A stretch of 64,000 bases of DNA from Effrenium voratum (lineage: Eukaryota > Sar > Dinophyceae > Suessiales > Symbiodiniaceae). Every line of letters starts with the position of its first letter. The stretch's first letter is position 1. Positions 454 to 64,000 of the stretch are shown one piece after another. The notes under the pieces were generated by a model. The model ran no database searches. It was not told the origin of the DNA and was given only the letters and a program-made list of their open reading frames with translations. The stretch is from positions 217,501 to 281,500 of the forward strand of contig CAUJNA010002890.1 of assembly GCA_963377175.1 (NCBI GenBank), written 5' to 3'. The translations under genes and the position numbers were made by a program.

Positions 454-3400
454 GTCCGCAGGCAGATCGGCGAGGGCATGTGGTCCTTTGAACAGGAGCA
501 AAAGCTCGCGAACATCGCCGTGAACGCGCGCGTGCTCAGCCGGGAAAACCCGTCAATCCGCCGCCCCAAAAGAATCGGGGTGGCAAGCCCGGCCAGCCGG
601 CTCAACTTAGCTTCTTAGATGTTATTTCTCGTGTTTTGTGGTAGTTTCCGAATTGAACCCACCAGTTTTCGTCACTTTTAGCGGGGGATCAGAAAACGCG
701 CAGCCCGGAAAAAGAACGGGCTTACCCTTGCGGAGCCTACACATTCGTGGGTGTTTTAAGGAAGCTCCAACTCAGCTTGCCGGTTCGATAGGTAGGCAAT
801 CAGAAATGGAATGACCGCCAATTCGGGAATCCCTTCCGGTTCATTCCCAACACCCGGCATGGTCATTCCCTACTGATCACCAGCAAGAAAATCAGAATTT
901 CAATCTTTTGAAGCTTTTCTTCCTCAGTTCATGGACTTTATAGTTCTTGGGAAAGCCATTCGGGTGGTAAACAAAAAGTTAATACTTCTTTTGGCCAATC
1001 AACTCAGAAAGTGAGTAGCATTTCAGACTTTTGTCTTTTTTCATATGGTTGTCAGCCCGTGGCTGCAGCCAAACCCGGGTCTTCTGCAAAACTATGGTCA
1101 TATATTTAGGGTGGACGAAATCCCGCACCACTTTGAAACCGTGGGTTTAGATAATTTGTTTCTTGGGAGTTATGACATACGGGTCTCACGAACAGTTGCT
1201 TTTGAGGCTACTCTTCTTGGGCCTGTTCGACCGCGAGACAAAGGTAAGAAGCTCCCTCTAGAAGCTCCCTCTCGACGCTTTCCGGGATTTTTGAGGGACA
1301 ACTGCGTCCAGGACAAGATGTCTCGATCTTCAAATGGGTGTGGCTCAAAATTACTTCGCCAGGCCTACGCAGGTTTTAGCTGGTTCCATGTGCCAAGGCC
1401 ATTGTGGTCTCCATGTTTTTGAGCCACAGCCAAATGGGCGAAGCGGTCCCGGGTGTCCCCTGGACCGCGCGGGAGCGCCGCCGAGGTGCGGATGACGGTG
1501 ATCAAGCTGCAGGATGGAAGTCTGCGAGGGGCTCAGCGGGATGGGAGCTCCGAGCCTGGCCAAAGCCATTGCCACAACGCACTGCCTGAGTTCAGGAACT
1601 TAGTCACTTTTTGGGACCGTTTTAGTGGTAAATACGAAGTTTGGACTTTTTTTGGGCCATCCACTCAGCAAGTGAGAGAAAAGCCAAAGGCGCGGCGAAG
1701 ATCTTTTGGTGTTGGGCGGCGCCGTTTGTAAGTCTTTCGGGGTGACAGCCCCACCTAACATGGAACCTGAGGAATTAGGAGGGGGCCTGGTTTTGTCCAG
1801 GGACCGGGTCCCTGTCAGGTGCCACGTTAATTAATTGCAGGGAGGGTAATTGACCTGTCAAAAAGAAGGTTTCACCGCTCTTTCGATTCTTTGCACTTTG
1901 GGCAGACCCCGTGAATACTAGGTTTTGAGCACGGCTCAACTGGGTATGAGGGTTGCTGAAAGGAGGGGGAGCTCTTTTGGACCCGTTGTGGGTGACTGAT
2001 TGTATGGAAGGGCCCCACATCGACCTCTTTTGAGGGTGTTCTCCATTGAATCTCATGGCTTAGAGCAGTTTGGAGCTGGAGCACAGGGAGCCGTTGCAGT
2101 TTGGTGCCTATGACAGGATCGAGAAGGGCAATCCATGTCCTTCGTACGGCTCCCCTTGTGGTCAGTAAGGATCGATGAATGTCCCCCCTGGTTTCGAGGG
2201 TTTCCACCCTCAAACCTATCCCAGGGTTAGCATCCCCGTTTGGGGGTTGGTTTATATAAGAGAAACCAAAGGAAACCCATCATTTTGGGACTAGCCCTTG
2301 AGACAAAGCCATATAGTTGGAGGCTGGAAGAGAACCATGGGAGTCCAGATCCAGAGCCTCACCTCATCGGACTCGTCGGACTGCGAAAGCAGCATGCGAC
2401 TTGTGAGCCACATCCTCAAAATATGGGTAGATAGGTCCAATGGGCCGCCTTTTTAGTTCTTGAAGCATGGTTCTGGGTAGACCATTTTGATACCGATCGG
2501 TTTTGATTATGACTCATGTGGCTACCTGTTTGAAAAACCTATTGGCTACCGGTTCACCCACGTGCCAACCCAAACCCACCAAGTCTATTTATTTGCCCTT
2601 TAAGGGAATCCCTGGGTTCATTCCCTTCCCTATTGAACACTGGCACCACCCGCGGTCAACATTCTGGGAACCGGCGAAGGAACCGTTTTTCAGTCGCGGC
2701 AACCGGCTCGCTCGAGGTGGGTGCACAACCCAATTGCGCCCACCGCCGAGTGTTTGGCCTTGCTGAGGCAGGGCTCAAATGGAAGATCTGCTTCACTTGC
2801 GATCGGTGCGATACGGAATGACCCGAGTCCAGGTTTTGGGAATGAACTTCATGAACCTAGGGTTTTTTCACATTCTGTTTCCACCAAAATGGTCTTCCTA
2901 AAAAGTATAAAGTCCATGAATTCAGGGAGAAAAGCTTCCATGCTCGGTAGGAAATGACTAAGGCCAGGTTTTGGGAATGAACCGGAAGGGGTTTCCCTCA
3001 CAGGAAACCATAGGGGATAGTTTACAGGGGTCATTCCATTTCTCATTCTCTGCTGAGAACCAGCAAGTTGGCTTGGAGTCCAATACAGGCTTTACATAGA
3101 GCCAACAAACAAGAGGTGCTTTTGGTTTGCATAGCCCGCGGATGGTAGGTCTCCTGTTTGCTTCCTTTGACACATGATCCGAAAACGGGTCCATAGCTGC
3201 TATGTGCATGGCCATGCAACGAAGCTGAATTGGCGGTCTCCTGGTCATTTTTGTCCACTCCCCACGAGTAATTGGTGCTTGGGTGCGCCACCCTAGACCA
3301 CTTGTTGAATTTGGTGGTGGGTGGGGGTGGGGGTGGTGTACACAAAGTCTGGATCCTGATGCGTCAAACCGCTCGTTTTAATCCGCGGCTTTCACAAAAT

Positions 3401-18400: not shown

Positions 18401-21400
18401 AGTTTTAGGTTGGTGCTTTGGATTGGTTTGGGGAATTGCAGCCCTGGTTCTTTGTAGAGGGTACATGGGAAAGCCCATGTCCTAACTATCACTTCTTGGT
18501 GGCTCCCAGCCATCCAGTCCTTTAGCTTTTTAGCCTTTTGGCTTTTCACTAAAAACTAGTCAAACTTTTAGCGGGGGATCGGACAACGGGCAGGGGCAGC
18601 CCAGAATTGGACGGCGTTTTGGCCCCAAATCCCAGGCCCAGATGGCCAGAGCATCATCGACCCATCACAGGCCCCAGGGGGGGCTAGCCACTCGCCGGGT
18701 GCCTGGAATGACTGTTCCCCAAATGGAGCCACGCCCTCAAAACCGATTCGGGAAGATGAAGAATCGTCAGGGAGAATCCCGTTGCAACTGGGTGCGGAGC
18801 TCGGCCTTGGGAATTCATTGAAGCATGCTTCTGGGGATCGACCCTTAGTTCCTACCGGCTGGTGAGAAAAAAATCACTCACATAGATCTCCGGTCTTCTG
18901 TTTGATCGCCCACATGCTCTCCGGGATGTTTGAAGTCTGTGCTCTTCAAGTTTCAGGGCCGAGCTCCGGGGCCAAGAAAATCCGTGCTAAGACCGGCTCC
19001 AGCTTGCGAGGCCGGCTCCAGCTTCCTAAACCGGGTGCGCCCTGAGTACTTTTGAAGCCACCCCCGGCTTTTGACCCCTACCCAGTCATTCCTCGGTGGA
19101 TGGTCTCAAGGGAAAAGACCAACTCCAAGGACTTCCTGGCAGGAACCCTCCGAGGTTAACATAGGTTTGCTGTCTTCGTGTGACAGAACCCCCTTGGCCT
19201 TCTTGAGTTTGTAACAAAAAGGGCCTTAGGAGTCGTCGGGAAACCAACCCCCAAAATGCGGATTTGTGTTGCCTCAAATGCGAAGAACCCACATGGAGCG
19301 AGCCCGAAATAGCATCCCACTCCAAATGCACCAGGTCTTGCGACCCCACCGGATTTTGTAAAGGGGATCCTCCCGAAATCGGTGGCTCGCAACTTTTGGT
19401 TTCCCCGCAGGAAGGTCGTTCTCGTTTGCCGGAACATGTGGGCTTGTCTTCATTCTTTGGGAGGTGTCTTTCCGCGCCATGGACACTTAGAGGCTATTTT
19501 TGTAGCCAGGCACCCTTAAAAACAATACCCTAAACGAAGGAGGTTACAAAATATGAGAAACACTGCCCCAACAGAAGGAGGTTCAATATATACATACATA
19601 CATATATATATATATATATGTATATATATACAAACAAAAACAATACCACCAAAGAAGCAGGTTCAAAATAGGCCCTAATGCCCTCTCTGCCTTTCCCCCC
19701 CCCCTTCAAGGGGTTGGTTTCAGCAGGCCTTCCGAGCCATTGCGGGCCGGTGGATCGTGGGGCCTGGCGCTGAGTAAGGCGAGAGTCGGAGACCCTCCGA
19801 TTTCGGGAGTTCGTTGGATGCCCTTGGATGGGTGTGGCTCCAAATCAAAGAGCTAGGGTTACGCAGCGTTTGGTCTTTGGCTCCATTTGCCAAGGTGCCG
19901 TTTTGGTTCATGTTTTTGAGCCACAGCCATGTGGAAACTTTGAGGAATCCGAGAGAAACCAAAGGGACACAGGTTCTGCTTTTTTAAGAGCAACCCTAAA
20001 AGGAACACAAATTATGTTTTTTTAGGAAGCACCCTGGAAGGAGCGTAGAATTCTGGTCCACTTCAGGTAACGTTGATTTTGGATTCATTTGGACATGGAA
20101 AACCACCTCAAGGAACCCAGGACGCCTCCGAAACGATTGCCAGCTCGGGTGCTCGAGCGGTCGTCATTCTTTTGCTCGAAACCACTTGTTGCTTCCCCGC
20201 AACAAATGGGCGTGTGGCAACCTTCCGAAAAGGCGTTATTATTTTGAAAGCTTTAAAAGACGGGGCAAGCGGCCAGAGGATAAGCCTGATGATGGATGGG
20301 GGGAACGACATGCGCGCACAGAGACTTGACTCCTCGTTCTCAAGCTAGTTGCAGATGCCATTTCCTGCAGTTGATTAAATGCAGGCAATGTGTGGCTTTC
20401 TTCAATTCTGCTTTTCAACAAACATCAGCTGAAGAGAAGCAACTCGTCCGCAACCATCTGAAGCTGAAAGAGCAACTCTCATGACTGACCCACATGTGGG
20501 TCAAAGCGCGCAAAGGACCCATTTTTTGGAAAAGGACCCAGGAGGAGTTTGAGCGAACTCCATTTCGCACCGCTTTGAAACCATGGGACACTATTGTTGG
20601 TTGGTATTTACAGGGGAATCATCAGAAACCAGGGCGTCTTAGGCGGTGCGAAATGGATTTCGCGTCCATCCACAGTATGTTAGTAAGACGGGTACACAAG
20701 TGGTATGTAGTTCATCACGTGCTTGGTGCGTAAACCACGTTTCTGGCTGACCCCAAACCCCAGTAACTGTGGGTGACTCCCTCCCCCCCTGGCTGGCTGG
20801 TTTCAAAAGGAAACCCAAAGGAAGCCAACCGTTTTTATTTTGAGGCAAGCCCATTTCTTTTCGGAAACTCAGCCCGGTGCCCGGGATTTCTCATGGGAAG
20901 CTGATTTCTCATGGACGTCGATTCTGATTTCGCGGGAGCGCTAGAAGCTGCATTTCCATGATGCATGCGAGCGATAAGAGTTTTGCTTCCAATTCTCATT
21001 TACTTCTCAAAATGGATCTCGGACCCACTTTGGGTTGGTATTCAGGGGCAGGGTTAGTACGTGGGTAATTACCACGATTATAACTCGCGAAAGCTGTGGT
21101 TGTAAGTCTTTTAAGTGGCTCATGTGCCGGTTTTCTCATTTGGCGAACCCGGCACAAACGGAGTGAGGCCGGTGTGCTACTCCCTGGTCTACGGGGGGCG
21201 GATTCGGAAGGAAGTGAAGGACCGGCCGAGCAGCGGAGACATGGGTGTCCGTGAAAGTTATCCACTTGAGCAGGGGATCTGAGGAGAGACCAGTTTTACA
21301 TTTTAGGGTGGACTAAATATGACATGCTGCATTTGGATGGCCGCGAAATTCAAATTGCCCCAGCCAAGAAACCCTGGTTTCAGATGATTCCCCTGTAGAT

Positions 21401-29781: not shown

Positions 29782-29946
29782 CTTCCATTTGCTGTTTCAG
29801 AATATATGTTGTTTTTCTTTTTTTGTTTTTAACCATGATTATTTTCCTTTGCTCCTTCAACCATGATTTTCCCTTGTTTGTCTTAAAATATTCATCACTG
29901 CTGGACATATTTTCTCATTTTTCCCAGGGGTCTCAACCAAATGGAA
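29782..29946 (+). mobile_element. Family C element
   Basis: Left end CTTCCATTTGCTGTTTCAG, interior CCCTTGTTTGTCTTAAAATA, tract TTTTTCCCAGGGG and right end TCTCAACCAAATGGAAG. It follows the putative HflX helix exon. Confidence 0.7.
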
Positions 29947-31282
29947 GGACGGGATCGAGGGGATGCGTTGAACGAAGCCCGGGCTTTTGGGTTGTCGTTG
30001 GGCTTTGAGCGTCCAAGCGCGAGCGAGACTGGGAAACACCGCATCAATCCAACCATCAAGGCTGCATGGCCAAACTTGCTGAGAAGGGGCTTTTGGGTAG
30101 GCTCTATGGGGGGATTTTGGAGATGGCTGAAAAATATACCAGTTGTTGGGGATGTGTTTTTCGGATCTTGGACAGTACTTGGGATTGTCGGGGGTGTTTT
30201 TGTGAAAACCTCTGTTTAAACTTTCAATGGTGTTTTGTTTGGGTTCAACTGTCCATTAAAACAAAAACAACTAAAAAGAACAGATCCCGCTGCCATAAAT
30301 GGGTGCGGATAGACGCCTTTTTGATTATTTGCATACATGTTGCTGGGTAGACAATTTTGCTACCCGGTTTTGCTTATAACTCATCTGACTCCGCAGGTTG
30401 TGTGCCACAAGTTGGGAGGAAGTCGGTCACATGGTTATAAGGACCGGCCTCATCTACTGATATCAATGGATATAGCCTACTTCTTGAGTTGGTTCAACAT
30501 CCAAGTTGACACCTTAGATGCTGCATTGGGAAACCCCAAAGGAGCCCTTTCCAGTCTATGAGGGAGAGAGATCTTTGAAAGTGAAACGAAGCTGGACATT
30601 TTGGGGCGGTCTCGAGGGACAGCCTTCACCATAATCTTCTGTTGAGGGGGTGCCATTTTTTGTTGTTGTTGCTTTTGGTCGGCTCAAGATAGGCGATATC
30701 ATGTCTGTGAACCAAAAAATGCTCATCGGATTGGTCAGTTGCAAGTTTTCTTGAATACCTGATCCACAAAGGGGTCACTAGTATTGACACATGAGGCTCG
30801 GTCAAAGTTAGTGTCAGCCTTTGGTTCATTTGGGAGGGACATGGGGGCTGAGCTCCAACTTGCAACCATCGAAACTAGGAGACTCACTTCCCATGTCCTC
30901 TTCAATTGTGACCATGCTTCACATACCCATGTGAGTGTATCGCATCATAGGGCCCCCCCTATGTCATTGGAAGCTTTGCTGTGCGGGCGACGCTCCGCAA
31001 TGTTAAAGCAACCCACTTCAAGCAAACAAAGGAGTCATCGAGATGAAAATCCAACTTGTGTATCAGATATTAGAGGTATATCTTCCACAGTTGTGCGTTC
31101 CAACGTTTCTCTCTCCTTTCTTTGCTGAGAAGAGCAACGGCGGAAGGTCAGCCACCGCAGGCTTTCTTTGATGTTCCTGTCTTTCTCTCAAAGCCTACCA
31201 CCAAATCTAAGGCCTTCCTTCCATTTGCTCAAGAGTAGTATTTTCATGATCACCTGTTGGTTTTAAAGGGAACCTATCACCG

Positions 31283-31390
31283 AACATCTGTGGCTCAAAA
31301 CATGTACCAGAATGGCACCTTGGTACATGGAACCCAAGCCTAAACCTACGTAACCCTAGCTATTTAATATTTTGAGCCGCACCCATATGT
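31283..31390 (-). mobile_element. Introner family H, copy 3 (antisense)
   Basis: On the - strand it starts GGGTGCGGCTCAAAATATT, contains CCATGTACCAAGGTGCC and ends GTTTTGAGCCACAG. It is thus the same family as the copies at 1336 and 19830, inserted in the opposite orientation to the gene. Confidence 0.75.
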
Positions 31391-31837: not shown

Positions 31838-34800
31838 GTCCGACGCCCAAGCGCTCAACTCATGGTCTGCAAGGTCCCCCAACTAGGTGCGCTTTGACCG
31901 TTTCTTTTTTGGGGGAGGGTTCCCCTGCTAACATAGACTACAGAAACAAAGTTGGTGCCCTTATTCTAACCACTCCCACTGGAGGAGGACCTAGTCTGTC
32001 TCTTGAGGGCCTCCAACTCAACAGCGTTGGTGGCAAGCCCAGCCTTTTGGTTCCTTAAAAAAAGCTTTTTGGAGATCTTTTTAGTGTTTAGTGGTAGTTT
32101 CCGAATTCACCCACACGTTTTCGTCACTTTTGGCGGGGGATCAGAAAACGGGCAGCCCAGAAACATGGCATCTGTAGGCGGGCACCTGGACGATCAGTTT
32201 CCTCTTGCGTCATTTCCCTTTAGGGCTTGGTTTAAAGGGAAACCAGGAAACCGTTCAATTTGGGGGGGTCCCCTCAGAAAAGACAACCATGAGCTTTTCC
32301 CCAACAGCTGAATTGAGACCCACTCTGTTTCTAACCAAACTAACCCAAGAAGGACACGTGCGGTCTCAAAAAGCCTAATTCGAGTTGGGGAGTCCTTTCC
32401 CCAAGCCGACGAGTAGAGGAACGTCTAGGGGATGTTTTCGGTAGGCGTTTTTGTGTTCTTCCCCTTTCTTTCCGGGACGGTTCCCTGGTTGCAAGAAGGC
32501 CTGAAAGGAAGACCAGTTTCTTCAAGAGGGACTCTGCTCTGGGTCCTGAAATGGGGTTCCAAGCTCAACTTTTTCGCTCCAAATACCCCGCTTTTCTCAG
32601 GGTAGTGTTGGATGGCTTTCCGAAATGCCAAATCTTTTTTGGTAGAGGGTTGACATGATACCCCTGAAAAATGGAGAGGGGGTTCATGGGAGTAATAGTC
32701 CTTTTCACAAACTCCTTCAGTCTGGGAGCAATCTCCTTTAGGGGACCTTTAGTACTTGGCTGTTTGGCCGGGTGTAACCCGCTAACAGCAAGGTCAACTC
32801 CACTGAACGCGGGCTTTTTACAACCCTAGGTTACGACCACAACTGACTAACTTGGCGAATCGAACACCCCAGTAAGAGTCTTTTTCCAACCCCCTCCCCC
32901 CCCAAATCCCCCAATCCCCCAATCCCCCAATCCCCCAATCCCCCAATCCCCCAATCCCCCAATCCCCCAATCCCCCAATCCCCCAATCCCCCAATCCCCC
33001 AATCCCCCAATCCCCTAATCCCCTAATCCCCCAATCCCCCAATCCCCCAATCCCCCAATCCCCCACCCCCCTAATCCCCCCGTTTTTGTTTCATTTCAGG
33101 GCTGACCCACTTGGTGAATCGAACACCCCAGTAAACCCCCCTCAATTCCCCCAGCATGTTTCAGGGGAGCCGTGTTTGTGCGGCCCTTTGTTCATTTTTG
33201 TTGAATTCGCGGATTTGGTTTCGGTGTCCGAGATTGTGAATCGCCTGGCCGGCTCTGACTTGCTGGTGAAGGCCTGCCGGACAGATCGACATGCCGGCGA
33301 GTTGCGAGCTATGAACTTGCGATCGGTGCGAGAGATGTGTTGGCGACGGCGAAGGGAACACCACGTACTTTGGAGGGGTCCCGTGAAAAAACGACACACA
33401 CACACACATTTGGGAGTCGCCTTTTCTCCCGTGACCTTCGCCGCGCATGTGATCAGTTTCCAGGATGGGGTCTTCGTGACTTTGGACATTGCTGCCCGCC
33501 GGATCAAGCTGTCCGCGCCCCGGATCGAGTTCCGGGCCAAACAACCTGATCTTGGAATGGGTCAAAATAAGGATTCTCCCCCCCAAGAAAAAAACAAAGC
33601 AAGGGATCCCCCAAAAAGGCACCCCCCCCAAAATAAGGGACCCCTTCTTTTGGTTTCCTTTAACCTTCAACGCCCCCCCCCGGGCTTGGTGCATGGAAAT
33701 CCTCCAGGGTCGAAAGGAAGCTTGCGTTCCCCTCTGAAGTGCTTGGTACGTTGCCAGAAGCAAGCTGCTTGCCAAAGGCATCGCCGCAATCAGCCACTGG
33801 TTTCACAGCATTCTTTCCCCCTGAGGCAGGATTGCTCCCGAACCTCCAGAAGAATGTCAAACAAGTTATCCCGCCACTAGACTCTTAAACTTTTGGAGTG
33901 CAGAGCGTGTCTTTTTGGAGGCCCTTTCGGTTGAAAAGGAGGCCAAAGGGACGCCACTTATTTTTTGGGGTCCCTCAAGCAACAGACAAACCCGGAAAAC
34001 CATCCACTCAAAGCTAAAGGATTGGTCGCGTTCCTTTCCAGAGGCCACTTAGGCCACTTACAGGGGCAAGGTACTTAGCAGGTGGTTAGTAAGCCTGATT
34101 ATACTCCATAACCCCGGCAAGTGGGTTTTATCCAGGCTTTACTACCCACTTCCCTCAGGAACAATGCCCCTTTAAGCCGCGAAACGGCTCTTCAACCTGG
34201 GCTCTTCAACCTGGGCCTATCACTCCATTTGAGCCACAATCGCAAAACCGATTCAGGCAGAAGGTTTGGGACAATCCCTTCTGGGTAGACCATGTTACTA
34301 CTAATGTTGACGAATGTTGACGAATTGCCCCATCTGTTTTGACGCATGTTGACCCAGGATCTAAGTAGAACCCGTCCTAATCGCTTTTGGGGGGGTGAAC
34401 AAACCCCTCCAAAAGTGGTCCGAATGCAACCACGAAAAGGAATGGAACACCCCCCCAATCCAAATCCACCAGGTATTAACCAGGCTCCCGCCTGCTGCCG
34501 CCGACCCTCGGCGCATTAAGGGAAAAGTCACAAGGACCGGTCCTGAAACACGTCCGCAAACCCAGGGACCACTTATAAGATTTTCTACGACCACAAACAA
34601 GGATTAACGGAAAAATCAGAAATATGGCAGCTAGTCCGTTAATTGCCGCTTGGGCCGGCTTGCGCCCAAGTCACTTCGAGTTGGCCCGGGAGCAGTCGCC
34701 TGTCCCGGGTCGCCCTGAAACTGGCCCTCCCGAAACTGCCCCGGCGACAGTGGCCCTAGTGGCCCTGGACCGGTCGCCGGCAGGGACCGGGACTTGGGAC

Positions 34801-37800: not shown

Positions 37801-40800
37801 AATTCAATCTTGCCTGCCTGAACTCCATTTAAAGGGGCAGGGTACTTAGGAAGTGATCAGGCCCGGTTTTACCCCGCAACAGCCATGGTTAGTCTCCGTT
37901 CAGGGTTTTTACCACCTACCTGACACACCCTGCCCGTAGCAGGGATCAAAATCATACCCAGCTCAGAGGGGCATAGCCAGGAGCTTCAGGAGGCAGACGT
38001 GGTGCTGCACGTGCGCGACATGGCCCACCCCTCCCGTCAGGAGCGACCACTGGTGACATCTGGGAGAAGAAAGGCCCTGAGGTGGACCCCTTTCTTGTGG
38101 TTTTAAAGGGAAGCCGATTGCCAAGCCACAATTTTGGAGATTCCCTGAAAAAGAAGTACCCAAATAGCGCATCGATTTGAAGGGTTGATAGGTGTTTCGC
38201 CCGCGAAAACCTGGGGGGTCAAGGAAATGTGCATGCCCGCAAGATTGCGGGTCAAGTTTGCTGGATGACGACTTGGAGGTGGGTGTCTGATTGATTCAGG
38301 CCTCTTTCAAGACTAGTTTTCTGAAAAAAGTGGCTATGAATTTAGCTAAGGAACCCCCTGGAAAGTGGTTGGTGGACAGAACCCACCTAAATGATGTCCA
38401 CCAGTTCGGGCCCGTAAGTAAAACATCATGCCCCTATGTTCTCTCTGTGGTTCCCAGGCATCCCCTTAGCCTTTTAGCTTTTTTGTGTTTCGCAGGGATT
38501 TTCATTGAACCCACTAAAAGTTAGTCACTTTTAGCGGGGGATCAGAAAACGGACAGCCCAGTTCTGTGTCTCGCTTTTGGGTTGAGGGGGCTCTTGAGAC
38601 TGGCGACGGGGAAACGCCTTCGAAACCATCTGCGGGTTCCGTGGTTTTGAGGCAGACCCGCACACTGGCACTCCCCTCAGTTCCAGGCTGATTGAAAGAA
38701 TGGCCTTGGGGCCCAGTTTGAACGGTGCAACACCCTAGGTAAACAACGGTGATTCTATGACCCCAGTTGTTTTGATTGTGGTTTGACTCCCACGTATGGT
38801 TTTGTCGGAATCCTCAAAATAGCTGGTTTGCTTTTGGTTTTCCTTATTTGAGAAACTTGCACATGGCATGGCGGCGACGCGTTTCTCTTTCAGTGGTTCA
38901 CTGGCTTCTTGGTGTGCCAGGAGCAATGGAAGATCGTGCGGCAGGTGCTTCAAGAAACAGAGATCGACCCCGACCGCATCATGGAGGCAGGGTGGCTCAA
39001 AATTCAGGATCAGGGACAGAAAACATGTTTGTTTTTCCCTACAAGCTGAGATCACATTTGCCAGGAGATTTGGAGAAGGTTTTCTTGTCACTCAGGCGGT
39101 TTTGGGATATAACATTGGGACCCTGAAGTGCTCAGTCTCCTCTCTATGTGCGCGGAATTTGTGGACAGGTGTGGAACAAGACTGACCTGCTGACCGAGAA
39201 AGAGGCCCGGTCAGTGAGTCAGGGCAGACGTGGGTGTGCTACAAGGGCCTAAAAAATTTGAACGGTGTCCACGGGTGAATGTGGAGAATCCGACCACTGT
39301 TGGAGGGGCCCCTACCCCAAACTAGGGTGATTAATATTTGGGTCAACATTCCTAAGGGTCCGCACAATCTCGTTGGGTTTCTTTTTGAGTTCCCTGTGAA
39401 TACCGACCAAAGGGGGTCCAGCATTTTGAGAAACTCCCAATGTTTGACCTCAGTTTTTCAAGGCCGACCTTTTGACCTTTCGGTTTTCTCTTTTTGGTCC
39501 ACTTTTAGTAAAGGTCCCAAAAGGTTAGCCTTTTTTTCCCGGGTCGTTTGGGCAAGTGAGTCACCCCTTTAGAATTCAGTCCGGCGCAAGTTCAGATTCT
39601 GCAACACTGCGCTTGCTGCCGTGGAGGCGGTTGCTTTGCGGCAAGTCATGCTCGCTTGCAGGGGATGGCTTCCGGGAATTCCTTTGATTTGCCTGGAGAC
39701 ACCATCAATGGGTAGAGCTGTACACGATAAATATGCAGCAGAACCAATCACCAGATTGGGCCAACTCTTCACTGTTCTTCTGGTTTTTGGTTCTTTTGCT
39801 CGGTTCTGTTCATTTCTAGCGGGTGGCAGCAAACAAATGAGTGGTTTGATCACAACGGACAGCTACCACAAAGGCGGACTCCGGTTTTTGGTTTCCCGAC
39901 GCTTTTTGCCCCAATGCCGTGCAAGAGCCCTCCTATACCTCAAACATTGGCCCCTAAAAACCCCTCCAATTGGTGGTTTGGATTGATGGTTTCGGGTCGA
40001 GGGGGTTGTTTCAGAACCAGGGGCACCCAGCTGGTTCGAATCTGTGGCTGGTTACAAGAAGTGAAGACGGGGTGGTGTCCGATTTACCCTCTACAAGAAC
40101 CCAGGGACCCGTTCTGATTCAAACCCGAAGCTGGTTGGAACCCGTTGCCACGAGCCGAGGTGCGGCATCTCTTCTACATCCATCAGAAGCAGGACTGGAC
40201 CGACGCGGAACCCTGTTTGCTCATTCCCATGGGAGGGGGAGTTCTCAAAATGCTGGACTTTCTGTTGGTTGCTTGGAGCCCCACCAAAACACACAATTTT
40301 TTGGGGACCCTGATTTTGAGAAACATCCACGCTTCTCGCATTTGTCCCCACCTCAGCCTCTTGGTGCTCTCCCCCTTTGCAGGATTCCACGCCAGTCCAG
40401 TGGGTGAGCGCGTTGACCGGTGCGCGCCTTAGTTTGTTGTTTGCCGAGTTGGCCGCATGCGAAGTAAATGGTTTTTCACCAGACCAAAAGGGGAGGGGTC
40501 CAAAAGGGGGAGACCACAAGGAGCTTGGTTTAACAGTTGTTTAACCATGGTTTAAACAAGGGGTTGAAGCCCTTTTCTGGGAATGCGCAGAATGATTTTA
40601 TTCATCTCTTGCAGATTCAGCAGTTCATGTGGTTGTTTTTGGTCCCGAATTACATTTGTTGAATGGTTGGTTGGGTTGGGTTGGGTTGGGTTGGGTTGGG
40701 TTGGGTTGGGTTGGGTTGGGTTGGGTTGGGTTGGGTTGGGTTGGGTTGGGTTGGGTTGGGTTGGGTTGGGTTGGGTTGGGTTGGTTGGGTTGGTGCAAAA

Positions 40801-43800
40801 TTAGCTTAACCAACCAGTTGGTACCCTTGAGGGGAAACAAAAGGTTGTTGACAGTTTTTTTTTTTTTTTTTTTTTTAAACATCAGGTTCCATCTTGGTTT
40901 GGATAGGTGGTTTGGAGATGGCCTGGCGCGGGGTCAAAATGACCCTACAAGAAGAGGTTCAAATCCCAGCCCTCACAACCAAAAACAGAAAGCCGCCCAT
41001 CCCAACCAGTTGAAAGGACGCTGATTTTGGTTGGTTTGAAGGGGAAACCAAAAGGACACACAACTTTGAGGGTGTCAACTCATCATGCTTGGCTATGAAT
41101 GATGATGCCTTCTCAAAAACGATTGGTGGACCCAAAGTCCCTACCCAAATTACAACCTGAAACTTTGTACTTCACATGGCATCATAAGGGTTATAGTAAG
41201 GCTTATATAAACCATGTTAGTAGAACCACAAGTCGACAGGACTTTTGGTTGCTGCTCACATGGAACCCAAAATTGGGGGTCCAATTCTCAAGGGGAGACC
41301 CCTCTGCGAATGGATTGTGTGATTGCAGATCCATTCCGTTAATCCGCAGCAATATTAGAGGCAACCTATTCACCAATACCTCTACAATTGTGCCATTTTA
41401 AAGCACCCCCCAACCCCATTCTACGCATTGAACTGCCTAGTGCGGGGTTTCCATTTTTTCCAACTTGCCTCATTCACGGAATGGCCTGGGGGAGGGTAGC
41501 AAGGTAGCAAACAACCAGATTCCCAGTTCGCAGTTGTGAGATGTCCACAATTTCGGGTCCACTAAAATGAACCCATGGGTCCCCTGAAAGAAAACCACCC
41601 GTTGGTTTATAGAGTCATTCCATTTCTCATTCCCTGCGGTTTTTACCCGCAAGAAGAAACAGTTGGTATTTTGGAGGTGCCGGTAGAAACCCCCGCCCCA
41701 ACGACTGAGGCGCCGGGTTCCCAGAGCTCCTCGAATCACTGGAGAAGAAGCTCCAGGCGCGAGACCAGATCTTGGCGCCCCGGCCATCCGAATCCGTAGG
41801 CTCTTAGCCTCACTGAGTTCATGGACTTTGAACTTTCTGGAAAGACCATTTTAGTGGTGAACGAAAAGTTTGGACTGTTGTTGGCCCATCCACTCAGGAA
41901 GCTTGTTAGTTGGTTCAGTGGCTGAAAAGTCCATGTTGCCCACCACTTTTTTAAAAGGGTTGTTAGCTTTTTAGTTGGTTTAGTTGTCCATCTAGGCTAC
42001 GAGTTGAACTTGTACCAGGGATCAGAGGACAGCCCAGAGATGGTTCCTTTTGGCAGGCTAAACCCCAAGAGGTGCTTTTGGGACGCCAAGAGATCTCTGA
42101 AGTCTTGGTGCTCCTTTTGACGCCTCAAGGCTCGGTTTCCCCCAGCTCAAGAAGCGATCTTCTCAAATCCCAGGTGGCCTCAAACCTGCGAGAAGCGAAT
42201 TTTCCCGGGATCTCTCACATTCCGCGGTCGTTTTTTTGGGCTTCAAGAAGGTTCAAGATGTTCAAGCGATCCGCTTGACATCTCTCAGCTCGGTTTTGGG
42301 GTTCCTGAAATGGGTTGAAAGGCTCTCCCTTGGGGTATGCATGCGTATATGTTTCTGCAAAAAAGCGAGGCATGAAGCCAGGGAGTTCCTTCGGTCATGG
42401 CCCAACAAAAGCAAGGCTATGTCCATTGAGCCACAATCAACACGGTGTGGCTAAGGAAGGGGGCAGTCCAAAAGAAGATTAGACGCGGCCGCTTTCCTGA
42501 TTGTTTAGAGGGGGTTGGGTGGACCCTCAACTAGGTCCCCCAGTAGTGCCCTTTTACCCTTTATTGGGGGAGAGTTCCCCTACTAAAATAGACTACAGAA
42601 TCAAGGGTACCCGTATTGTAACCTCTCTACTGGAGGACCTAGTCAATCATAGGCTTTGATCATGACTCAAGTGTGTCGCTGGGCGCCATGCACTGCCCTG
42701 AGTGAAAACGAATCATTCCAAGTGCCCATGTGCGAGCAAGTCATGCTTAAGGGGCCATTTTCCATAGACAATCAGTTGGCACATGGCTGGCTCTTACAGC
42801 GAAACCAAAAAGACGAAATCACGATTTTGAGGGGTATCCAATTGCGCCATAATCAAAACCCGGGTAAGTGAAGGTTGGAAAGGGGCAGTCCCAACCAGAA
42901 TTATGTGCGGCCGCGTTTTTTGTTCATTGCATTGGTTTTGGTAGACCATTTTTATACCGACCGCTTTTGATTATATATGACTCGCATGACCCCATCTAAG
43001 CGTCCAGGCTGTTGCTTTCCTGTTGCTATCCCTCAAGCTTGTTTACGGGAGCCCAAAAGGAAAGCCAACGGCATCACCCATCAACGCCAGAACCATGTTC
43101 AATTTGGGTCTGTCTTCTTTTTGAGGGTACCCCTGTTTTGCTTGGCTTTAGAGGAAACCAACAGGACAACCGAAGCCATTGTGAGCCATTTGAGGGCCAC
43201 GCGGTGCGGCTGGTGCCGCGGCCTGAGGGAGCATGCATCCAAGTTGGCGTTGGGAGCTAAGGAGCGACCAGGAGGTCTGTAAGGACATGGTTGGTCTCTG
43301 ACTGTTTTGGATCCTTATCCCCTTCTTTGGTTGGTTTTACAGGGAAACCAAGAGGAAGACAAAACGGCGGTTTCGTGTGGTTCTTTTTGCTGGACGGGAA
43401 GCCCTTCAAACGCGCCCATTCCCTTCTTCTGGGTCCTCTCTGTTTCTCCGTTTTGTGATGGATTCCAGGATGCTTGAAGGGGAAAATCTGGGCTTGTCTC
43501 CAAATCGGGACCCCCCCCGGTGTGGTTTCCCTTTGGTTGGGCTTAGAGCCAAAAGAGGGTACCGACTCTCCAACACAAAGACGCACCCCACCCACCTTTA
43601 TCGCATACAGGTGCCTTTTTTTAAAGTTGGCTTTTCTTTACCACAAGAACAGGTGTGTACCACCTCCGAAGAAGTTCCTCGAGCTATCGCCAAGCTGTCA
43701 TAGCTTCAGGCCTGGTCGCAACACGGCGGCAGCACTGGAGGCTCGCACTGGGATGCTAGGGGTACCTTCCCCAGTCTTTCCTCCACGAACCCCCGCCCCC

Positions 43801-46800: not shown

Positions 46801-49800
46801 GTGCCGTTCAGAAATCGATCGACGTCTATCGAGCCTGGGCTTAGGTTGTGGAGGAATCGATCTCCTCCTGCAAGGAGCCGTCCGGTTGGGTTTCGAGGCA
46901 TAGGTGTCCTTTTTGGTTGTTTTCGTAGACGAATAGATGGCGATTCCTGGTTTACCTGGTGGTTTTTCCTCATCCACCAGGGAAACGCATCTATTTCCCC
47001 CAAAGGGACACCCATTCCAACAACGTGTAGAAAGTGCAGAATTGCTTTTGGAGGTATCCCCAGACCAGGGAAACCCGTCTATTTCCAACCTAAAAGGACC
47101 CCTATGTTTCAAGGGCATTCTTTTTAAAACCACCAAGCAAAGGTAGACAAGGTCCCCCAGTAGTGCCCTTCTCTCCCCTTTCTTGGTTGGGAAACTTTAC
47201 CCTACTAAAATCGACCAAACATACAAAAAGGGCATCTCTCTTTTTTTCTTCTGAAAAACCCCCGGTGTTTTTTTTCCTTAAAAAACAAAAAAACAAAAAA
47301 GGATCTGAGGATCTGAGGATGTCACGGGATCAAAACTGCCGGTGTATATATGAGCCACGGACAAAACACACGAAGACCACTTTATCAAGGCGGGGTACGT
47401 TTTTGCATAACACATGCCAAAACCATGCAAAACGATAAGGTCTCCCCCAAAAACGATAACCCTTAGCTAACACACGGCTCAATAATAACCCCTGCAGTTG
47501 CAACTTAGCTAGGGTGGGACCCTTGCGTGGCCACCGTAAAACGAGAAGGCGAGTCGCCACTTTCGAGCTGGAGCTGCCAAGGTGTGCTTCGTAAATACGA
47601 CACTTGTACTGAGAAGTTGCGATTTTCGAGCTGGAGCTGCGGAAGTGTACTTCGCTTACCAGACTTGTACTACAAAGTTGCGATTTTCGAGCTGGAGATG
47701 TGGAAGTGTACTTCGCGTACTAGACTTGCACGACAAAGTTTCGATTTTCGAGCTGGCGCTGCGGAAGTGTACTTTTCGTACTAGACTTGTACTCCAAAGT
47801 TGCGATTTTCGAGCTGGAGATGCGGAAGTGTACTTCAAAGTACTAGACTTGTAATACAAAGTTCCGATTTTCGAGCTGGAGATGCCGAAGTGTACCTCGC
47901 GCACTAGGATTGCACTACAAACTTTTCGAGCTGGAGCTGCGGAAGTGTACTTCGCGGAAGTGTACTTCGCGTACTAGACTTGTACTACAAAGTTGCGATT
48001 TTCGAGCTGGAGCTGCGGAAGCGTACTTCCCGTACTAGACTTGTACTACAAAGTTGCGATTTTCGAGCTGGAGCCGCGGAAGTTTACTTCGCGTACTAGA
48101 CTTGTACTACAAAGTTGCGACTTTCGAGCTGGAGCTGCGGAAGTGTACTTCGTGTACTAGACTTGTACTACAAAGTTGCGATTTTCGAGCTGGAGCTGCG
48201 GAAGTGTACTTCGTGTACTAGACATGTACTACAAAGGTGCGATTTTCGAGCTGGAGCTGCGGAAGTGTACTTCGCGTACTAGACTTGTAGTACAAAGTTG
48301 CGACTTTCGAGCTGGAGATGCGGAAGTGTACTTTGTGTACTAGACTTGTACTACAAAGTTGCGATTTTCGAGCTGGAGCTGCGGAAGTGTACTTCGCGTA
48401 CTAGACTTGTACTACAAAGTTGCGTTTTCGAGCTGGAGCTGCGGAAGTGTACTTCGCGTACTAGACTTGTACTACAAAGTTGCGATTTTCGAGCTGGAGC
48501 TGCTGAAGTGTACTTCGCGTACTAGACTTGTACTACAAAGTTGCGATTTTCGAGCTGGAGCTGCGGAAGTGTACTTCGCGTACTAGACTTGTACTTCAAA
48601 GTTGCGATTTTCGAGCTGGAGCTGCGGAAGTGTACTTCGCGTACTAGACTTGTACTACAAAGTTGCGATTTTCGAGCTGGAGATGCGGAAGTGTACTTCG
48701 CGTACTAGACTTGTACTACAAAGTTGCGATTTTCGAGCTGGAGCGCTGTGGAAGTGTACTTCCTGTACTAGACTTGTACTACAAGTTGCGATTTTCGAGC
48801 TGGAGCCGCGGAAGTGTACTTTGCGTACTAGAATTGTACTACAAAGTTGCGACTTTCGAGCTGGAGATGCGGAAGTGTACTTCGCGTACTAGACTTGTAC
48901 TACAAAGTTGGGATTTTCGAGCTGGAGCTGCGGAAGTGTACTTTGCGTACTAGACTTGTACTACAAAGTTGCGATTTTCGAGCTGGAGATGCGGAAGTGT
49001 ACTTCGCTTACCAGACTTGTACTACAAAGTTGCGATTTTCGAGCTGGAGCTGCGGAAGTGTACTTCGCTTACTAGACTTGTACTACCAAGTTGCGATTTT
49101 CGAGCTGGAGCTGCGGAAGTGTATTTCGCGTACTAGACTTGTGCTACAAAGTTGCGATTTTCGAGCGGGAGCTGCGGAAGTGTACTTCCCGTACTAGAAT
49201 TGTACTACAAAGTTTCGATTTTCGAGCTGGAGCTGCGGAAGTGTACTTCGCTTACTAGACTTGTACTACAAAGTTGCGATTTTCGAGCTGGAGCTGCGGA
49301 AGTGTACTTCGCGTACTAGACTTGTACTACAAAGTTGCGATTTTCGAGCTGGAGATGCGGAAGTGTACTTCGCGTACTAGACTTGTACTACAAAGTTGCG
49401 ATTTTCGAGCTGTAGATGCGGAAGTGTACTTCGCGTACTAGACTTGTACTACAAAGTTGCGATTTTCGAGCTGCAGAGGCGGAAGTGTACTTCGCGTACT
49501 AGACTTGCACTACAAAGTTGCGATTTTCGAGCTGGAGATGCGGAAGTGTACTTCGCTTACTAGACTTGTACTACAAAGTTGCGATTTTCGAGCTGGAGAT
49601 GCGGAAGTGTACTTCGCGTACTAGACTTGTACTACAAAGTTGCGATTTTCGAGCTGGAGCTGCGGAAGTGTACTTCGCGTATTAGACTTGTACTACAAAG
49701 TTGCGACTTTCGAGCTGGAGCTGCGGAAGTGTACTTCGCGTACTAGACTTGTACTACAAAGTTTCGATTTTCGAGCTGGAGCTGCGGAAGTGTACTTCGC

Positions 49801-52800
49801 GTACTAGACTTGTACTACAAAGTTGCGATTTTCGAGCTGGAGCTGCGGAAGTGTACTTCCGTACTAGACTTGTACTACAAAGTTGCGATTTTCGAGCTGG
49901 AGATGCGGAAGTGTACTTCGCGTACTAGACTTGTACTACAAAGTTGCGATTTTCGAGCTGGAGCTGCGGAAGTGTACTTCGCGTACTAGACTTGTACTAC
50001 AAAGTTGCGATTTTCGAGCTGGAGTTGCGGAAGTGTACTTCGCGTACTAGACTTGTACTACAAAGTTGCGATTTTCGAGCTGGAGCGCTGTGGAAGTGTA
50101 CTTCCTGTACTAGACTTGTACTACAAGTTGCGATTTTCGAGCTGGAGCCGCGGAAGTGTACTTTGCGTACTAGAATTGTAGTACAAAGTTGCGATTTTCG
50201 AGCTGAAGATGCGGAAGTGTACTTCGTACTAGACTTGTACTACAAAGTTGCGATTTTCGAGCTGGAGCCGCGGAAGTGTACTTTGCGTACTAGAATTGTA
50301 CTACAAAGTTGCGATTTTCGAGCTGGAGATGCGGAAGTGTACTTCGCTTACCAGACAGACTTGTACTACAAAGTTGCGACTTTCGAGCTGGAGCTGCGGA
50401 AGTGTACTTCGCTTACTAGACTTGTACTACCAAGTTGCGATTTTCGAGCTGGAGCTGCGGAAGTGTATTTCGCGTACTAGACTTGTGCTACAAAGTTGCG
50501 TTTTTCGAGCGGGAGCTGCGGAAGTGTACTTCCCGTACTAGACTTGTACTACAAAGTTTTGATTTTCGAGCTGGAGCTGCGGAAGTGTACTTCGCTTACT
50601 AGACTTGTAATACAAAGTTGCGATTTTCGAGCTGGAGCTGCGGAAGTGTACTTCGCGTACTAGACTTGTACTACAAAGTTGCGATTTTCGAGCTGGAGAT
50701 GCGGAAGTGTACTTCGCGTACTAGACTTGTACTACAAAGTTGCGATTTTCGAGCTGGAGCGCTGTGGAAGTGTACTTCCTGTACTAGACTTGTACTACAA
50801 AGTTGCGATTTTCGAGCTGGAGCCGGAAGTGACTTCGCGTACTAGACTTGTACTACAAAGTTGCGATTTTCGAGCTGGAGCTGCGGAAGTGTACTTCGCG
50901 TACTAGACTTGTACTACAAAGTTGCGATTTTCGAGCTGGAGCTGCGGAAGTGTACTTCGTGTACTAGACTTGGAAAGTGTACTTCGCGTACTAGACTTGT
51001 ACTACAAAGTTGCGATTTTCGAGCTGGAGCTGCGGAAGTGTACTTTGCGTACTAGACTTGTACTACAAAGTTGCGATTTTCGAGCTGGAGATGCGGAAGT
51101 GTACTTCGCTACTAGACTTGTACTACAAAGTTGCGATTTTCGAGCTGGAGCTGCGGAAGTGTACTTCGCGTACTAGACTTGTACTACAAAGTTGCGATTT
51201 TCGAGCTGGAGCTGCGGAACGAGCTGGAAAGTGTACTTCGCGTACTAGACTTGTACTACAAAGTTGCGATTTTCGAGCTGGAGATGCGGAAGTGTACTTC
51301 GCGTACTAGACTTGTACTACAAAGTTGCGATTTTCGAGCTGGAGCTGCGGAAGTGTACTTCGCGTACTAGACTTGTACTACAAAGTTGCGATTTTCGAGC
51401 TGGAGCTGCGGAAGTGTACTTCGTGTACTAGACTTGTACTACAAAGTTGCGATTTTCGAGCTGGAGTTCCGGATGTGTACTAGACTTGTACTACAAAGTT
51501 GCGATTTTCGAGCTGGAGATGCGGAAGTGTACTTCTCGTACTAGACTTGTAGTACAAAGTTGCGATGTTCGAGCCGGATCTGCCAAAGTTCGAAAACACT
51601 GTAAAACGATAAGGTCTCCCCCAAAAACGATAACGTTCAAAAAAGTACTAGGGCCAAGTAAAGTGTTTCGTCCGCTCCTCATATATAATTATATATATAT
51701 ATATCTTCTAACAAAAGTTGGCATCTCCTCCTTCCAGCTCCAAGCCCCGAGCCAGCGGGCTCCGAAGCCAAGTCCAGCTGGTGGGTGTCCAGGGCTTAGG
51801 TTTGGAAATCCATGGAAATCGATGGAACCGCTTTGGAACGGACGTTTTTTTTTTTTTAAACCACTCGCCAGGGAAGTCCCAATCTTTCTATTGTTTTTTC
51901 CAAAAGGTCCACTTCTGCCCCATGTTTTGCGGGCTGAGCTGGCAAACATCTCGCCCCCACCGGACACCACCTGGGCGTTCCTCGAGTTGCGCCCTTGTAC
52001 CAACCTTTTTTTGGGAGGGTTCCCCTACTAAGATAGACAAAACCTTTTTCTTTTTTAAATACGAGAAAAAAGGAACAAACACATCGGGGTACCCTTATAT
52101 ATTCTAAGCAACCTCTACCGGAGGACCTAGCCCACCGAAGCGATCCAAAGGGCGGGCAAAGTTGTCGCAACGCCGAAGACGAGGACAGCGGGGACCTGGT
52201 GCTGGAGGTGAAGATGGACCACGCCGCGAGGTCCAAGCCGCTCGTCAGAATGAGAAGGACGGTGGGGTCTCCTTGGTACTCTTCCATTTTGTTTAAAGTG
52301 TGTTTTCTTCTTTTATTTTTGTTTAAAGTGTTTTCTCCCTAAACCCTCATTCATCTCATTCATCTCATTCATCTCGGACCCTTGGATAGGAAAAGTCGTC
52401 GGCTTCCCTAAAACCTCTCCAACCCTTGGCGTCGATGCCACCAGGTGGGGGACCGCAGGTGTGAGTCCGCAGGTTCCATTTGCCAGGGTAAGCCATTTTG
52501 GGTACTTTTTTTGTACCCACAGCCAAATGAATCGATTTTTTAAGTTTTCCCTTGTTGGTCTTAAAAGGCATTTATCACTGCTGTTTTTTTTTCCAGAGGT
52601 TTAACGAAATGGAAGTACTTGGATGTTCGGCCCAGATACTGGCAACAGGATTTCACCACCAGGTTAAAGGGAAGCCGTGTTTCTGACTTTAAACCCCACA
52701 GTCAACATATTGCTCCCGGAGTTCGTAAGTGGGGAGAAGGCCACCTGGGATCTATAAGCCACGAAAACTAAGGTCCACTCCACTGCACGGGGGACTTCTT

Positions 52801-54307: not shown

Positions 54308-54424
<117 letters not shown>

Positions 54425-57313: not shown

Positions 57314-57462
57314 TCAAGGGGCGATCGAGGCGATCGATTCGGTACGTCGGGTAAGTGAGAGTACGCTTGATTATAACCCACTGAAGGGAGACTGAAGTAA
57401 CCATGGTAGCTAGGTTATAACCAGGCTTGCTGACCACTTACATGACGTACGGTGCCCCTTGA
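57314..57462. mobile_element. Family A TIR element (149 bp)
   Basis: TCAAGGGGC and GCCCCTTGA are the ends. Inside, GGTACGTCGGGTAAGTGAGA is mirrored by GACCACTTACATGACGTACG, and TTGATTATAACCCACTGAAG resembles other copies. Confidence 0.75.
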
Positions 57463-58235
57463 AGGAGTCATGTGAACGGCACCTCTTTCCTTTTATGTTT
57501 TCCCCAACTGCAAGATGTCTGGGCTCCAGTAGGCCCAAATAAGCTCAGTTGTAAAACCTGTTTACTCCCATTGCTCATCCCCTTTCTAAAAAACGAATTG
57601 CTCCCCCCCCCAACACAGGAGGCTGCCATCATCTTAAAATGGTCGCCTGTCCACTGCCATGATTGTTGGAAAGAGCGCACAAGGTGTGTTCATCAAGCAT
57701 TCCCCCTTGGATTACATGTTGGCTGTCCAAATGGTGTGCAGTCAGAGCCATGTTTAAGCCGTTTTTCCAAGAGGACGAAAAACACACAAACGCCATCAAC
57801 GAATTCCAGGAACGGCAAACAAAAGCACAAGAAGCCATCAATGCATGGCCCCCAAAAAAGGCCGTCAATGAAAGGCAAAAAAGCCACCGAAGAACGGCAA
57901 AAATTAACAAAAGGGCGCTGGTGCACCCAGCCGCGCTACCTGACGAAAACTCTGCTCGATAGAAAAATAGGGAAACGCACCGTAGCAGCTGGCCTCCTGG
58001 GCTTGGTGTGTAAAACGGGGAGCAGTTCTCATGCGAGCGGGCGTTGCTCGTGATTTTCTGTTCCTTGCCTTTTTTTGGTAATATATATATATATATAATT
58101 CTACTAGGAATCTGTTTCCTTCTGGTTTTGCGAGCGTCTCTGGCAGTTTCCCAGAATCCCCTTGCTTTCTGAAAGTGTTTCTCCTTTCCTTTCCTTCTTT
58201 TCCTTCCCTTTCTTTCTACTAGCGTCTCTAAACTC

Positions 58236-61925: not shown

Positions 61926-62648
61926 ATGAGCGTGATGAGGTGCGCGCTGCTAGTCACCCTTGCCGTTGGCCAGGCAAGCATGGCAGATGACGCCTCATGT
62001 GCTATGCAGCTAGCCACAAGAAAGGAGGAGCTCACTCAACGCATCAACTTTACCGAAGTGAAAGCATACCGTGGCAAGTACTGCTACAATCCAGGTGATG
62101 AGAAGAGTGGCGAGTATGGACGCCTGAACGGCCTTGCCAGTCAGCAGGAGTGTGAGGACTACTGTTCCGCCGACCCCAAGTGCAACTTTTATGCCTGGTA
62201 CTCACGAAGCAGGTGTGATGCATGTGCCCTTTACCAGAGCTGCACATACCAGCGCGACTCCGTGTGTCTGGATGGCCACTATCCGAAGGTGTACCAGAAG
62301 TCTCCTGAAGACACGGCCCGGCAACCCACACCAGTAAAAGGATACGTGGCGGATGTGACAAAGATGGGTCAGTACTGCAGGGGCGCGGAGATCGTGACTC
62401 TCGAAGAAGCGACCCTGGCAGAGTGCAGGTCCAACTGCAGTATGTTCTCCAACTGTTGGTACTTGGGGTACTACTACCGTTCTTCGCCGCGCGAGGATGC
62501 GACTGGCACTTGCACTGCTGCCTGCCGCCTCTTCAAAAATTGCAATTCGAGGGTGCCCTCTCTGTGCGAACCAAGTCCATACGTGTTCATGGCCACGACC
62601 ACCACCACCACAACCACGACCACCACGACCGCGAACACCACCCCGTGA
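61926..62648 (+). CDS. Secreted Cys-rich PAN/Apple-like protein, tandem copy 1
   Basis: 240 codons in one open frame. Residues 1-20 (MSVMRCALLVTLAVGQASMA) look like a signal peptide. Two similar cysteine-rich modules follow. Module 1, about residues 50-125, has YCYNPG, ECEDYCSADPKCNFYAWY, CDACALYQSC and a C-terminal Cys. Module 2, about 148-225, has YCRGAE, ECRSNCSMFSNCWYLGYYY, CTAACRLFKNC and a C-terminal Cys. The C..C..CxxxxW/Y..C spacing is PAN/Apple-like, a fold used for carbohydrate or protein binding; that is inference. The tail is 12 consecutive Thr plus ANTTP, typical of a glycosylated linker. NFT at 41-43 is a possible N-glycosylation site. The stop lies inside CCCCGTGAGC, a good GT donor, so a further exon cannot be excluded. 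Confidence 0.85.
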   Translation: MSVMRCALLVTLAVGQASMADDASCAMQLATRKEELTQRINFTEVKAYRGKYCYNPGDEKSGEYGRLNGLASQQECEDYCSADPKCNFYAWYSRSRCDACALYQSCTYQRDSVCLDGHYPKVYQKSPEDTARQPTPVKGYVADVTKMGQYCRGAEIVTLEEATLAECRSNCSMFSNCWYLGYYYRSSPREDATGTCTAACRLFKNCNSRVPSLCEPSPYVFMATTTTTTTTTTTTANTTP

Positions 62649-63352: not shown

Positions 63353-63446
63353 TACTTAAGGGGCAGGGGGGTACGGTTACAAGTCTGCTAAGTGGGTTAT
63401 CAGCGGGCTTACCGACCACTTCCCTGACGTACAATGCTCCTTGAAG
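63353..63446. mobile_element. Family A element just upstream of PAN-like gene 2
   Basis: GTACTTAAGGGGCAGGGG at the left and CCTGACGTACAATGCTCCTT then GAAG at the right. Its right end aligns with that of the element at 61742-61844. It marks the start of sequence shared between the two gene copies. Confidence 0.65.
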
Positions 63447-63517
63447 TAGTGAGGCTGAGCCTTCCGTAGCTTTCTCGATCGAGCCCGCCGCGAATCGCCT
63501 TTGCTTATCTCGGAGTC

Positions 63518-64000
63518 ATGAGCGTGATGAGGTGCGCGCTGCTAGTCACCCTTGCCGTTGGCCAGGCGAGCTTGGCAGAGGACGCCTCATGCGCCATGCA
63601 GCTAGCCACAAGAAAGGATGAGCTCACTCAACGCATCAACTTTACCGAAGTGCAAGCATACCGTCGCAAGTACTGCTACAATCCAGGTGGGTATGGGTCA
63701 AAATTAAGCCACCAGGATGTGGACCGCAGGTTTTAGTCCATGTTTGCATTTGCCAGGGCAAGCCATTCGGGGGTTATCCTATTTTTGACCCACAGCCAGG
63801 TGATGAGAAGAGTGGCGAGTACGGACGCCTGAACGGCCTCGCCAGTCAGCAGGAGTGTGAGGATTACTGTGCCGCCGACCCCAAGTGCAACTTTTATGGC
63901 TGGTACTCACGAAGCAGGTGTGATGCTTGTGCCCTGTACCAGAGCTGCACATACCAGCGCGACTCCGTGTGTCTAGATGGCGACTATCCGAAGGTGTACC
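63518..64000 (+). CDS. PAN/Apple-like protein, tandem copy 2, with intron; 3' cut
   Basis: Second copy, exactly 1592 bp downstream of the first ATG. Exon 1, 63518-63686, encodes the same signal peptide and the start of module 1 (YCYNP). Exon 2, 63800-64000, continues GDEKSGEYGRLNGLASQQEC to YPKVY and leaves the window inside module 1. The intron 63687-63799 (GTGGGT...CCAG, phase 1) is absent from copy 1. Read through, the frame would stop at VDRRF. Differences from copy 1 are few and conservative in character (for example SMA to SLA, KAYRGK to QAYRRK, YCSAD to YCAAD, FYAWY to FYGWY), so the copy appears functional. Confidence 0.85.
63687..63799 (+). mobile_element. Introner family H, copy 5: intron of PAN-like copy 2
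   Basis: The intronic insert 63689-63797 (109 bp) begins GGGTATGGGTCAAAATT and ends TATTTTTGACCCACAGCC, an inverted repeat. AGGT lies on both sides (63685-63688 and 63798-63801). Copy 1 has a single AGGT at this point (TCCAGGTGATGAG). Splicing between the two AG|GT copies removes GT, the element and AG, restoring the uninterrupted frame exactly. Family copies at 1336, 19830, 31283 (-) and 52437 show it is a dispersed element. Confidence 0.9.

Follow-up and report, generated by a model that had tools for sequence, protein, structure and literature searches.

How might a transposable element become an intron upon entering a gene, with the encoded protein left as it was? The question is raised by two tandem gene copies near the end of the window (the whole 64-kb stretch of DNA that was analyzed), of which the first is uninterrupted and the second carries an insert. 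The insert, its terminal inverted repeats (TIRs), the duplication that flanks it, the dispersed family to which it belongs, and the corresponding uninterrupted site of copy 1 are all directly observed (Table 1). From these features, we infer that a nonautonomous TIR transposon (a MITE of the family here called F1) probably inserted into copy 2 after the tandem duplication and made an intron there, which would be spliced out with no change to the protein. Such an event would be an intron gain of the introner type.

Table 1. Positions of the gene copies, the insert, its predicted splice junctions (slashes), and the F1 copies in the window
Feature	Positions	Strand	Description
Gene copy 1	61926..62648	+	Intact, uninterrupted ORF of 240 aa (ORF list); Cys-rich, with a Thr-rich tail
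Empty site in copy 1	62090..62102	+	Reads TCCAGGTGATGAG without interruption (sequence)
Copy 2, predicted exon 1	63518..63686	+	169 nt; ends ...CCAG; intron phase 1
Left direct repeat	63683..63689	+	CCAGGTG (7 bp); holds AGGT at 63685-63688
Predicted intron	63687..63799	+	113 bp; donor CAG/GTGGGT, acceptor CACAGCCAG/GT
MITE-like TIR element, F1	63689..63797	+	109 bp; from TIR/TSD scans and family search; CAGGTG at both boundaries
Right direct repeat	63796..63802	+	CCAGGTG (7 bp); holds AGGT at 63798-63801
Copy 2, predicted exon 2	63800..64000	+	Open to the window end
F1 copy	1336..1431	+	Exact duplication AAAT inside CAAATG at both boundaries; surroundings without a recognized gene
F1 copy	19830..19928	+	Flanks GGAT and ATGT, duplication not exact; right boundary CATGTG
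F1 copy	31288..31384	-	Flanks ATAT and ATGT, not exact; terminal CC missing at right end; left boundary CATATG
F1 copy	52437..52524	+	Left end lost; AAAT on the right only; right boundary CAAATG

The preliminary description of this locus had proposed an alignment of both gene copies. Identity is 96% over the two blocks (182 nt and 205 nt) beside the insert and 93% over a block of 84 nt further 5′, and the net difference is 113 bp. Copy 1 had been said to be uninterrupted near position 62090, and this is borne out by its sequence. At the corresponding place, copy 2, which starts at 63518 and leaves the window at 64000, reads TCCAGGTG...CCAGGTGATGAG, the sequence of copy 1 being split there by the net 113 bp. 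About 1.6 kb separates the filled site from the empty one, the paralogs being nearly identical, and copy 1 provides the intron-free counterpart of the insertion site that is looked for in the case of introners.

The product of copy 1 has weak similarity to a PAN domain (PAN_1; E = 0.017; 15.4 bits), which falls below the curated cutoff of 21.4. No relative of this protein was found at E values of up to 10 in a protein search (96 word-sharing candidates), and a protein search of viral_contigs with the same product gave no match; yet the gene at 61926 to 62648 is duplicated, and its copies differ by an excess of synonymous changes. A dispersed repeat resembling CTACTTAAAGGGGCATTGTACGTCAG is found at 11584 to 11621, 34146 to 34176, 57419 to 57467, and 63412 to 63449. 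One of these repeats is at the 5′ edge of copy 2 and may mark the breakpoint of the duplication.

With AGGT taken as the target duplication, the insert is an element of 109 bp. Its TIRs are imperfect (GGGTATGGGTCAAAATTA versus GGCTGTGGGTCAAAAATA; 3 mismatches in 18), and AGGT stands immediately outside both ends. The earlier account of copy 2 as split by a 109-bp TIR element with AGGT flanks is correct in these respects, although the direct repeat is actually 7 bp long. Because the motif is palindromic and the outer bases match the ends of the element, the true target site duplication (TSD) could be 2, 4, 6, or 7 bp, any of which leaves the net insert at 113 bp. The F1 copies with exact duplications have the properties of MITEs, being short (96 and 109 bp) and noncoding, with TIRs that differ over the outer 14 bp at two positions in the 63689 copy and at one position in the 1336 copy.

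An iterated nhmmer profile search of the 64-kb window found five F1 members at E values below 1e-3, and the next best match had an E value of 0.048. The element had been described as dispersed elsewhere in the window, and the search agrees, with four further members besides the one in copy 2. Five copies in 64 kb is dispersal of the kind that marks an introner, as is family similarity up to the intron boundaries: the F1 alignment spans 63689 to 63797, and the predicted intron spans 63687 to 63799. A consistent 4-bp duplication across the family had also been expected. This is the case for two of the four copies that retain both ends (AGGT and AAAT) and not for the other two, in which the duplication is inexact; the fifth copy has no left end. 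These inexact flanks weaken the claim of a universal 4-bp TSD, although older copies would lose exact duplications through decay as well. Only one F1 copy is inside a recognized gene. The other four are located where the scanned ORFs show no known domain, so that a single site gives evidence of intron formation.

None of the 108 ORFs scanned had a Pfam domain, that of a transposase included, at an E value of 0.01 or better. These ORFs were handpicked from 140 among the 164 that passed a filter for length and composition, which left out the array at 47.3 to 51.7 kb. The window had no Rfam match at the gathering score, and no tRNA was found in it. Gapped patterns containing both TIRs of F1 had no matches in viral_contigs and none in genome_contigs (a prokaryote collection). 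A 17-mer from a single end of F1 matches 13 viral contigs, and these matches are taken as chance.

Could the insert be an assembly error or a chance resemblance? Copy 2 does lie at the edge of the window, but its insert belongs, with its TIRs and target duplication, to a repeated family, and structures of this kind are far more frequent in the window than in simulated sequences. When 13-bp TIRs (two mismatches at most) flanked by an exact 4-bp repeat were scanned for, the window had 11 matches versus 1, 1, 0, 1, and 1 (mean, 0.8) in five order-2 Markov sequences of 64 kb each; two of the 11 (42531/42535) are one element. We regard such an artifact as highly improbable.

The exact empty site, the 7-bp direct repeat, and the four other members of the family all count in favor of an intron derived from a MITE. 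According to the proposed mechanism, the nonautonomous element would have entered the coding sequence of copy 2 at a CAGGTG after the gene duplication, and the target duplication would have set AGGT at both of its ends. The left duplicate would become the donor (CAG/GTGGGT) and the right duplicate the acceptor (...CAG/GT), and the spliceosome would excise 113 nt as a phase 1 intron, leaving the protein unchanged. The ends of the element are those of the predicted intron, except for the GT and the AG that come from the duplicated target. This agrees with the earlier proposal that both predicted splice sites would lie inside the duplicated target of a TIR element with a TSD at an AG/GT site.

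The reading frame fits the same prediction. As had been claimed, predicted splicing of 63687 to 63799 restores the frame with zero net change. This is the only pair of sites to do so among the nine frame-keeping donor-acceptor pairs listed for the scanned range (GT, GC, or GA donors), the other eight giving changes of −12 to +36 nt. Read without splicing, the frame of copy 2 meets a stop at codon 73, within the insert; with 63687 to 63799 removed, it stays open over 123 codons, as far as the window end. Compared with copy 1, exon 1 has 3 synonymous and 5 nonsynonymous differences (pS, 0.080; pN, 0.038), which is a weak difference when taken alone; exon 2 has 6 and 3 (pS, 0.149; pN, 0.019; approximate Fisher P = 0.0024); and both exons together have 9 and 8 (pS, 0.116; pN, 0.027; P = 0.0028), all of these values pooling both lineages and all of the time since duplication, including the period before insertion. 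The frame kept without net change and the synonymous excess count as support for splicing, and in our judgment, the insert is likely to be spliced out.

The eight other frame-keeping pairs count against this splicing model, as does a competing AG within the element (CACAG; last base at 63795), which precedes the acceptor required by the frame by 4 nt and whose pairing with the donor at 63687 would shift the frame. This AG would suit a recent insertion that is not spliced and has left copy 2 a disrupted gene, as would the position of the other four F1 members where no gene is recognized, which is that of a general MITE. Such a disruption is nonetheless improbable in view of the insertion at an AG/GT site in the very register that restores the frame with zero net change, and of the 67 compared codons downstream, which have no other lesion and show the synonymous excess. 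Folding of the RNA was considered as a possible aid to splicing at 63689 and was rejected, since the predicted hairpin of this copy is not stronger than those of shuffled sequences (z = −1.0; 34 of 200 shuffles were equally good). The predicted hairpin of the 1336 copy has a z score of −3.04.

If the insert is an intron, it is the element itself, which at some time entered a site resembling the one in copy 1. A gain that postdates the duplication takes one event, whereas an insertion that predates it calls for another, the exact loss from copy 1. The latter history, in which a MITE-derived intron predates the duplication and was lost precisely from copy 1 via cDNA conversion or via deletion between the CCAGGTG repeats, would be consistent with an ORF that is uninterrupted over the whole of copy 1, and the 7-bp repeats offer a possible basis for exact deletion. 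It is rendered unlikely by the need for two events and by the 105 bp 5′ of the copy 1 ATG, which recur in copy 2 with only a slight difference in length. By eye, there is no poly(A) tract right after the copy 1 stop codon, and no convincing spliced-leader relict was found near copy 1. A search of the window with the leader sequence (no more than 6 mismatches in 21) gave a sole match, at 42425, far from both genes. CCGTAGC, the first 7 bases of the leader, is found 5′ of both copies and recurs at four further plus-strand positions in the window; being common to both copies, it does not single out copy 1. The idea that copy 1 is a retrocopy was rejected on the basis of the shared upstream sequence and the lack of a convincing relict. 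Gain in copy 2 by insertion of the MITE is the reading that we favor.

The boundaries of the F1 copies suggest how the site may have been chosen. When read so as to include the first base of the element on the left and its last base on the right, seven of nine F1 boundaries fit CANNTG, a motif noticed post hoc; the misfits are the left boundary of the 19830 copy and the right boundary of the 31288 copy. We tentatively propose, as a possibility short of an even chance, that F1 integration prefers the palindrome CANNTG and that its CAGGTG version would set both splice sites, survivors in exons being filtered to CAGGTG and copies in noncoding DNA having any CANNTG. CAGGTG contains the proto-splice site CAG/GTG, so that the choice of target alone would fix both splice sites. 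The AGGT word makes up 5 of the 720 four-mers of copy 1, and a splice-competent site would therefore seldom be met by blind insertion. CAGGTG accounts for 35 of 332 CANNTG sites in the window and for 2 of 9 in copy 1; under CANNTG targeting, a chance insertion at a splice-competent site would therefore not be rare. This last consideration gives some weight to the unspliced insertion discussed above, for which 2 of the gene's 9 CANNTG sites would appear splice competent by chance. If the proposal is true, a transposase target preference that overlaps AG/GT would account for new introns at proto-splice sites, with the protein unaltered, and this idea of target choice becomes testable from the present locus.

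Comparison with introners described elsewhere places the probable MITE-derived intron in a known context. The excerpted text of Gozashti et al. 2022 (PMC9860276) gives 548 introner families, most of which leave mRNA length unchanged. The match to the introner concept made in the preliminary description holds for the TIR element with a TSD at AG/GT, a mechanism published in that text, and is qualified by the exact TSDs in only two of the four two-ended copies. In the same excerpts, introners of Symbiodinium microadriaticum have a 4-bp TSD, TIRs, and a 5′ splice site from the TSD. Like family 1 of that species, whose published example spans 115 positions, the F1 element is short, has TIRs and a 4-bp TSD, and would make an intron with a TSD-derived 5′ splice site. 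As far as the descriptions can be compared, it differs in that family 1 carries its own 3′ splice site, whereas the frame requires an acceptor AG from the duplicated target in the case of F1. Introners of Florenciella are like F1 in this regard: according to the Fig. 2E legend of PMC9860276, the insertion site supplies both splice sites, and the element carries neither. Florenciella is of another lineage, however, and the likeness is one of splice-site layout, not of sequence or ends.

Similar features are reported for other dinoflagellates. Amoebophrya introner elements, as portrayed in part of PMC7789003, combine inverted repeats (8 to 20 nt) at the ends of the intron with direct repeats (3 to 5 nt) across its boundaries; they are defined on noncanonical introns (1% and 15% of the canonical introns have a comparable layout), whereas the F1 intron is predicted to be GT-AG. 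In Prorocentrum cordatum, introns that have an inverted repeat at each end are ascribed to nonautonomous DNA transposons in the sections of PMC10666404 consulted, and F1 resembles these; the catalogue there is pattern based and the host G+C content is 59.7%, in contrast to about 50% in the window. A passage of the review PMC11453091 attributes to Roy et al. 2023 introners in five dinoflagellate genomes and 12,253 introns from recent insertions in Polarella glacialis. The likeness of F1 to these would be that of introner-driven intron gain, in related hosts if the F1 host is a dinoflagellate. The portion of PMC10522408 seen merely applies such introner catalogues. The locus is a clean new single example of a process already known on a large scale, as the excerpts of PMC9860276 make plain. 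Near-identical paralogs, one empty and one filled, make the target, the duplication, and the splice sites of the intron's origin readable base by base.

A search for other pairs of empty and filled sites gave three gapped repeat pairs in the window (with the 61-bp array left out), one of which is the 63689 locus; the remaining two have short or low-identity arms and long overlaps. The window is rich in several kinds of inverted-repeat element. A second scan, for inverted arms, found 57 structures (average over ten controls, 7.2), and a direct repeat of at least 4 bp accompanies nine of the 57 (control mean, 0.8), the 63689 element not being among these nine. Five of the nine are doubtful, with palindromic words inside the arms (CTAG, AGCT, CATG, CATG, and AGTACT). 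Among matches to the first scan, the repeat words at 16238, 42535, and 52619 are likewise palindromic (CTAG, CTAG, and GTAC) and may be arm sequence rather than duplications.

Several individual elements were also noted. The 8-bp direct repeat (CTCTCGTG) of a TIR element at 11109 to 11213, with ends CATAGGTGTCC, points to a transposon class different from that of F1. Another, of 198 bp at 11296 to 11493, has ends GCCAACCACTT and AGGTG flanks and is likewise at a CAGGTG site. It was considered as a second introner and rejected, as none of the six frames is open throughout when its 240-nt flanks are joined; a short exon would still fit. Exact 4-bp flanking repeats accompany TIR elements at 12481 to 12616 (CTTA), 29782 to 29947 (GACG), 42531 to 42642 (TCAA), and 28744 to 28841 (GTCA), the first two of which have the end CTTCCATTTGC in common. 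A large tandem array occupies 47561 to 51583 (61-bp unit; about 65 copies; 87% matches), and simple tandem arrays are found at 32900 to 33080 (CCCCCAAT), 40665 to 40793 (GGTTG), and 54316 to 54422 (TTGC units).
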